From: Methylovulum sp.
Lineage (GTDB): Bacteria; Pseudomonadota; Gammaproteobacteria; Methylococcales; Methylomonadaceae
NCBI GenBank assembly: GCA_030653435.1
Contig: JAURZI010000089.1
Location: 1-64,000, forward strand
Direction: 5' to 3'
Length of the DNA stretch: 64,000 nt
Shown here: positions 59,748-60,173 of the stretch, piece after piece
How the letters are laid out: every line of letters begins with the position of its first letter
Position numbering within the stretch: the stretch's first letter is position 1
Translations under genes and position numbers: made by a program
Notes under the pieces: generated by a model
What the model was told of the DNA's origin: nothing
The model's input: the letters and a program-made list of their open reading frames with translations, nothing else
Database searches by the model: none

Positions 59748-60173
59748 CTAGAAAAAAATCTGATGTTTAAATTGATCCAATAAAGCTTCGGCCTCACTCG
59801 CCCGGTGCATGAAAAACGCTGGCGTGGGGCGTTGCAAAAAGTCGCTGAAACCATCAATTTGCTCCACATCCCCACTGTTAATTTTATTAAAACCCATCGT
59901 CCATTTTTCAAAGCCACGCTGCCTTATTGGTTTTTTATTAACCAGCAACACATCACGATGCCTTGAGTCTTGGGCAATTTTTTTAAATAACGTGTCGATT
60001 TTTTCCTCATCGCCTTCCAGAGCCTGCATAAAAAAGCCATCCCGGTAGAGCAACATGCCGGTGATACCGAGCTTTTCATTATTTTCCCGTGCTTTTGCCA
60101 GCATAGATTTGAGATGTTCGTCAGACATTTCTTGGTTTGCCAAGCTAACGTAAACTAAACAATGAAGTGACAT
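59748..60173 (-). CDS. BLUF-domain blue-light photoreceptor
   Basis: This 141-residue protein is a single BLUF (FAD blue-light sensor) domain plus a short helical tail, the size of short PixD/YcgF-N-type proteins. The flavin-contact set is complete at the canonical positions: Tyr8 (LVYVS), Asn31 (ENNEKLGITG), Gln50 (FMQALEG), Trp91 and Met93 (KWTMGF). It should bind FAD and change shape in blue light. No output domain is attached, so it would act by protein contact. It lies 69 bases after mmoC and 175 bases before the small gene coupled to mmoG, inside the sMMO gene order. Possible partners are that small protein, MmoG or MmoR; this is inference. Confidence 0.92.
   Translation of the reverse strand: MSLHCLVYVSLANQEMSDEHLKSMLAKARENNEKLGITGMLLYRDGFFMQALEGDEEKIDTLFKKIAQDSRHRDVLLVNKKPIRQRGFEKWTMGFNKINSGDVEQIDGFSDFLQRPTPAFFMHRASEAEALLDQFKHQIFF

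Follow-up and report, generated by a model that had tools for sequence, protein, structure and literature searches.

What is a gene for a blue-light photoreceptor doing inside a gene cluster for methane oxidation? The published control of sMMO is a copper switch (PMC7994243). In lakes, inhibition of methane oxidation by light has also been reported, and it may underlie daily variation in methane flux, although the cause is open (PMC7474682, PMC5104750). The window considered here, a stretch of 64,000 nucleotides from Methylovulum sp. (contig JAURZI010000089.1), carries an sMMO cluster in which a short gene of the BLUF family is lodged (Table 1). No report of a BLUF protein or other photoreceptor in an sMMO cluster or in methanotrophs was found in the hit lists of searches of the open-access literature. 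The new part is the standing place of the gene in the sMMO cluster; the protein itself belongs to a known family.

Table 1. Features of the sMMO cluster in the window, with the evidence for each assignment
Feature	Coordinates	Strand	Evidence
mmoY, hydroxylase beta subunit	62603..63781	minus	NF045802, 732 bits (cut-off 700)
mmoB, regulatory component	62168..62593	minus	NF045804, 252 bits (cut-off 245)
mmoZ, hydroxylase gamma subunit	61661..62158	minus	NF045805, 276 bits (cut-off 230)
mmoD	61334..61585	minus	TIGR04550, 114.9 bits (cut-off 80)
mmoC, sMMO reductase	60243..61280	minus	NCBIfam NF045803, 565 bits (cut-off 500)
mmoC-BLUF spacer, 69 bases	60174..60242	minus	AGAGGA, ribosome-binding-like; fold z +0.45
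BLUF photoreceptor gene, 141 aa, short (PixD-like)	59748..60173	minus	Pfam PF04940, conserved residues, fold search
BLUF-E104 spacer, 175 bases	59573..59747	minus	Stable hairpin at about 59589-59628, z -3.15
E104, conserved unnamed 104-aa ORF	59258..59572	minus	Present in every sMMO cluster read
mmoG, GroEL-like chaperonin, single gene	57576..59261	minus	PF00118, GroEL subfamily models (NCBIfam), position
mmoR, sigma-54-dependent activator	55442..57205	minus	PF00158, 205.9 bits, and Fis-type HTH, position

The cluster runs from mmoY through mmoB, mmoZ, mmoD and mmoC to the BLUF gene, E104, mmoG and mmoR, all on one strand, with mmoX beyond the window end. The core genes and their order in the part seen, the GroEL-like mmoG and mmoR are shared with the mmoXYBZDC clusters of M. 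capsulatus Bath and M. trichosporium OB3b (PMC7994243), whereas in the window a BLUF gene stands between mmoC and E104 ahead of mmoG, and mmoQ and mmoS are missing between mmoG and mmoR. A sequence-only reading of this DNA had put the BLUF gene on the same strand between mmoC and an mmoG pair; the placement stands, but the pair consists of E104 and one chaperonin gene, which overlap by 4 bases. E104 has no match in Pfam or NCBIfam, and no solved relative of it was found. It is conserved in the sMMO clusters of two families, and is tandemly duplicated in L077 and L098, both of which are clusters lacking BLUF. The spacer between BLUF and E104 is longer than the 27-58 bases found in most relatives, and measures only about 27 bases in the close relative L071. 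It was considered as a repeated element and rejected as such, being near-unique, with one weak second match (67%) in the genome.

The BLUF reading frame begins with ATG behind its ribosome-binding-like site. Pfam BLUF spans residues 3-94 and scores 113.7 bits (cut-off 25), which bears out the earlier claim of a complete domain, and it is the sole domain matched, so that the protein indeed has no fused output domain. The core is followed by a C-terminal helical tail, for which the predicted model gives helices at residues 100-113 and 125-140 with low confidence; the model as a whole has a pLDDT of 69 and the tail is poorly modelled. In a fold search the PixD chains TePixD (Tll0078) and Synechocystis Slr1694 rank first, and these are the best matches in both sequence and fold, at around 30-37% identity. 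They resemble the window protein in size, in the BLUF core, in the separate C-terminal helices and in having no fused output domain. PixD-type proteins are further marked by ring-shaped oligomers and a PixE-type partner. Unlike the PixD family, the window protein has its own conserved C-terminal motif, around EAEAxLxxFKHQ, and is encoded in an sMMO cluster. Short BLUF proteins work through protein contact. Such a mode of action is also predicted for the window protein, which in this and in its length is like BlsA of Acinetobacter baumannii, even though BlsA stands lower in the fold ranking (6w72, rank 49) and its gene is not known to belong to a monooxygenase operon. BlsA binds and antagonises the metal-response regulator Fur in the dark (PMC5955987).

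Tyr8, Asn32, Gln50, Trp91 and Met93 are invariant in all 19 orthologues described below. The sequence-only reading had listed the same flavin-pocket residues apart from the asparagine, which it placed at position 31; that position is a lysine in 15 of the 19, and the conserved asparagine is residue 32. Read from its residues, the protein is close to certain to be photoactive, and it would be expected to bind flavin and undergo the photocycle, which in BLUF photoreceptors goes with a red shift of some 10-15 nm in blue light.

The distribution of the gene was surveyed in 237 genomes of the family. Of these, 55 have an mmoY match with an E-value of 1e-60 or lower and in four others sMMO genes stand on contigs that break off within the cluster, making 59 sMMO-bearing genomes, and 58 clusters were read, namely that of the window and 57 others. 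An intact BLUF orthologue (65-82% identity) is found in 19 of the 58 and invariably sits between mmoC and E104, whereas two clusters hold remnants and 37 have no BLUF gene. In a further cluster that is cut by a contig end (L144) a piece of BLUF lies beside E104, so that the slot BLUF is present in 20 of the 59 genomes, drawn from eight genera of the family as judged by genus codes. Every BLUF match of at least 65% identity in the 237 genomes (19/19) lies inside an sMMO cluster. In three genomes with a partial mmoY (G130, G132 and G137), which lie outside the set of clusters read, BLUF matches reach at most 38% identity. A one-off insertion is ruled out by the identical slot in 19 intact clusters. 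The survey of sMMO loci was the check that the sequence-only reading had proposed, and lack of conservation in related loci was what it thought would refute a link with light; the gene came through, with its slot and photochemical residues kept and purifying selection acting on it.

The sMMO clusters nearest to that of the window, L068 and L069, have no BLUF gene, and eight sMMO clusters of a second family in the order contain E104 and no BLUF. Since the gene is missing from 37 of the 58 clusters, the two nearest included, it is an accessory input to the sMMO cluster and not core control. Two genomes possess two sMMO clusters each, one with BLUF and one without (L088/L100 in G227 and L097/L121 in G042), and these pairs are a natural internal control. 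Cluster L094 (G064) has a second BLUF gene, 59% identical, after mmoR, bringing its number to two. The window's own genome holds a second, distant BLUF of 38% identity (G000:C154:60335-60610, L160), beside a gene for a PLP-dependent decarboxylase. Three named orthologues come from genomes of uncultured methanotrophs, two with titles that suggest lakes (Loclat and Lac Pavin).

Across the 19 orthologues 60 of 141 positions are invariant, and conservation is 0.86 in the tail (residues 121-141), 0.83 in the core and 0.72 in the linker. In pairs without saturated synonymous change dN/dS is 0.05-0.10, with the exception of one pair at 0.31 that looks recombinant, and the gene is, on these ratios, under purifying selection. 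Loss does nevertheless happen, as seen from the remnants, which comprise only the last 27 residues in L070 and a frame with an internal deletion in L099. The gene is thus real and maintained, yet dispensable, as the closest relatives of the window and the eight clusters of the other family do without it.

In a tree of 61 BLUF sequences the 19 slot copies group in a single supported clade (98/88) together with four others of unsure place. An exclusive clade of slot copies was not upheld, with these four lying inside it and the AU test not settling the matter (p 0.098). The four are outside the slot, and those with neighbours checked adjoin unrelated genes (tryptophan, lipid A, HD-GYP). The divergence of BLUF follows that of mmoC, E104 and mmoG with rho 0.57-0.65, a value not matched in any of 500 permutations, whereas the flanking genes follow one another more tightly (rho 0.74-0.91). 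The BLUFs of L112 and L119 resemble one another and those of the window's group more closely than their sMMO clusters do, the clusters belonging to far lineages; constraining the other 17 BLUFs as one clade is rejected, with a modest p-AU of 0.03 for a group that was named after seeing the tree. The BLUFs of L096 and of L100/L121 are identical in their N-terminal halves and not in their C-terminal halves. More broadly, L095, L096, L100 and L121 have near-identical N-terminal halves, different C-terminal halves and nearly identical flanking genes, a pattern that is best described as recombination inside the BLUF gene. Strict vertical descent is unsupported in view of the patchy distribution, the recombinant genes and the closeness of the L112 and L119 copies, and for a plasmid origin no plasmid match at 60% identity or more was found. 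We read this history as a shared origin that was probably followed by losses and some transfer into the same slot.

A gene with such a history could be a passenger that once came into the slot, was carried along with sMMO clusters as they recombined and is now being lost because it does little. The 11-13 switches between presence and absence along the sMMO tree, the decayed copies in L070 and L099 and the signs of horizontal exchange would suit this, but the low dN/dS speaks against it, as does the fact that photochemical residues have been lost in none of the 19 copies, and we consider it very improbable.

Whether the gene is transcribed with sMMO bears on a second alternative, in which BLUF, perhaps together with E104 and mmoG, would form a transcription unit of its own, set off by a terminator after mmoC and unconnected with the regulation of sMMO. 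Hairpins of -16 kcal/mol or stronger are found between mmoC and BLUF in 10 of the 19 clusters, some with T-runs after them, and the spacers there reach 476 bases, both of which would suit such a unit. The hairpins are unlike in sequence, the shuffles used for them across relatives preserved base content only, and they may equally be attenuators or processing sites. No hairpin of that strength is present between mmoC and BLUF in the window, where the fold is not terminator-grade, or in L071, L073 and L112. All ten of the relatives' clusters checked that reach far enough have a sigma-54-like site some 1.8-1.9 kb ahead of mmoY, which places it before mmoX, and no such site was found ahead of BLUF in the window and the relatives checked; a scan limited to a simple sigma-70 consensus likewise found no promoter ahead of the gene. 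The sequence-only reading had held that an independent promoter, together with no light effect on sMMO, would count against the light link, and, as far as a promoter of the mmoX type is concerned, there is none ahead of BLUF. A separate unit appears improbable. With no sigma-54 site of its own and no strong hairpin behind mmoC, the BLUF gene of the window may plausibly be read by read-through from mmoX. Strand, spacing and the missing sigma-54 site agree with the predicted co-transcription with mmoXYBZDC, whereas the hairpins of some relatives disagree, and in the latter attenuation or separate transcription units are possible.

The explanation that we favour, and to which we would give an even chance, is that BLUF is an accessory photoactive protein that shifts a partner in the light and so tunes sMMO expression or maturation and assembly. 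Blue light absorbed by the flavin would shift the hydrogen-bond network of Tyr8 and Gln50, upon which the C-terminal tail would rearrange and contact with a partner protein would be made or broken, the conserved tail being the putative contact surface. The partner probably belongs to the sMMO machinery, because the gene lies behind mmoC and just ahead of E104-mmoG, and the most likely candidates are then MmoR or the E104/MmoG pair, in the control or assembly of sMMO. Light would in this way modulate the expression or maturation of sMMO in addition to its switch by copper; co-transcription of BLUF through read-through from mmoX, and the sign of the light effect on sMMO, are likewise presumptive parts of the scheme. 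Our confidence in the whole is held at this level because output directed at sMMO is its uncertain step.

That step is where a third explanation departs. Here BLUF would be made with sMMO at low copper and act elsewhere, on motility, c-di-GMP or metal uptake, so that the cell would read light only in its sMMO state and sMMO would not be the target. The position of the gene would give co-expression without contact with sMMO proteins, and precedent exists for short BLUF proteins working in trans on global regulators (PMC5955987). Among six flanking proteins no significant covariation with BLUF presence was detected; E104 comes nearest, with 7 sites against 2.3 expected (p 0.057 before correction for the six proteins). 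However, the clade members outside the slot, where checked, lie beside unrelated genes with no common target in sight, and that the linked copy has been kept in one slot time and again points to a local role. We regard output elsewhere as possible, if rather unlikely. A dedicated partner among the neighbours was also considered and rejected, as E104, mmoG and mmoR are kept in clusters without BLUF. If the favoured explanation of a light-shifted partner in sMMO control or assembly is right, this retention means that BLUF would be a modulator of sMMO and not an essential part.

The fixed slot in many genomes suggests a part for light in the control of methane oxidation, and a conserved photoreceptor gene in the sMMO cluster is a specific candidate for such control. 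The candidate comes with natural controls, in that sister genomes differ in whether they have the gene, as do even sister clusters within a single genome. We would tentatively propose, at somewhat less than even confidence, that one family of methanotrophs has a blue-light sensor dedicated to sMMO and wired into it, and that light may thereby set the oxidation of methane through this copper-independent enzyme. If this is true, G227 and G042 would each possess a copy of sMMO tied to light and another that is blind to it.
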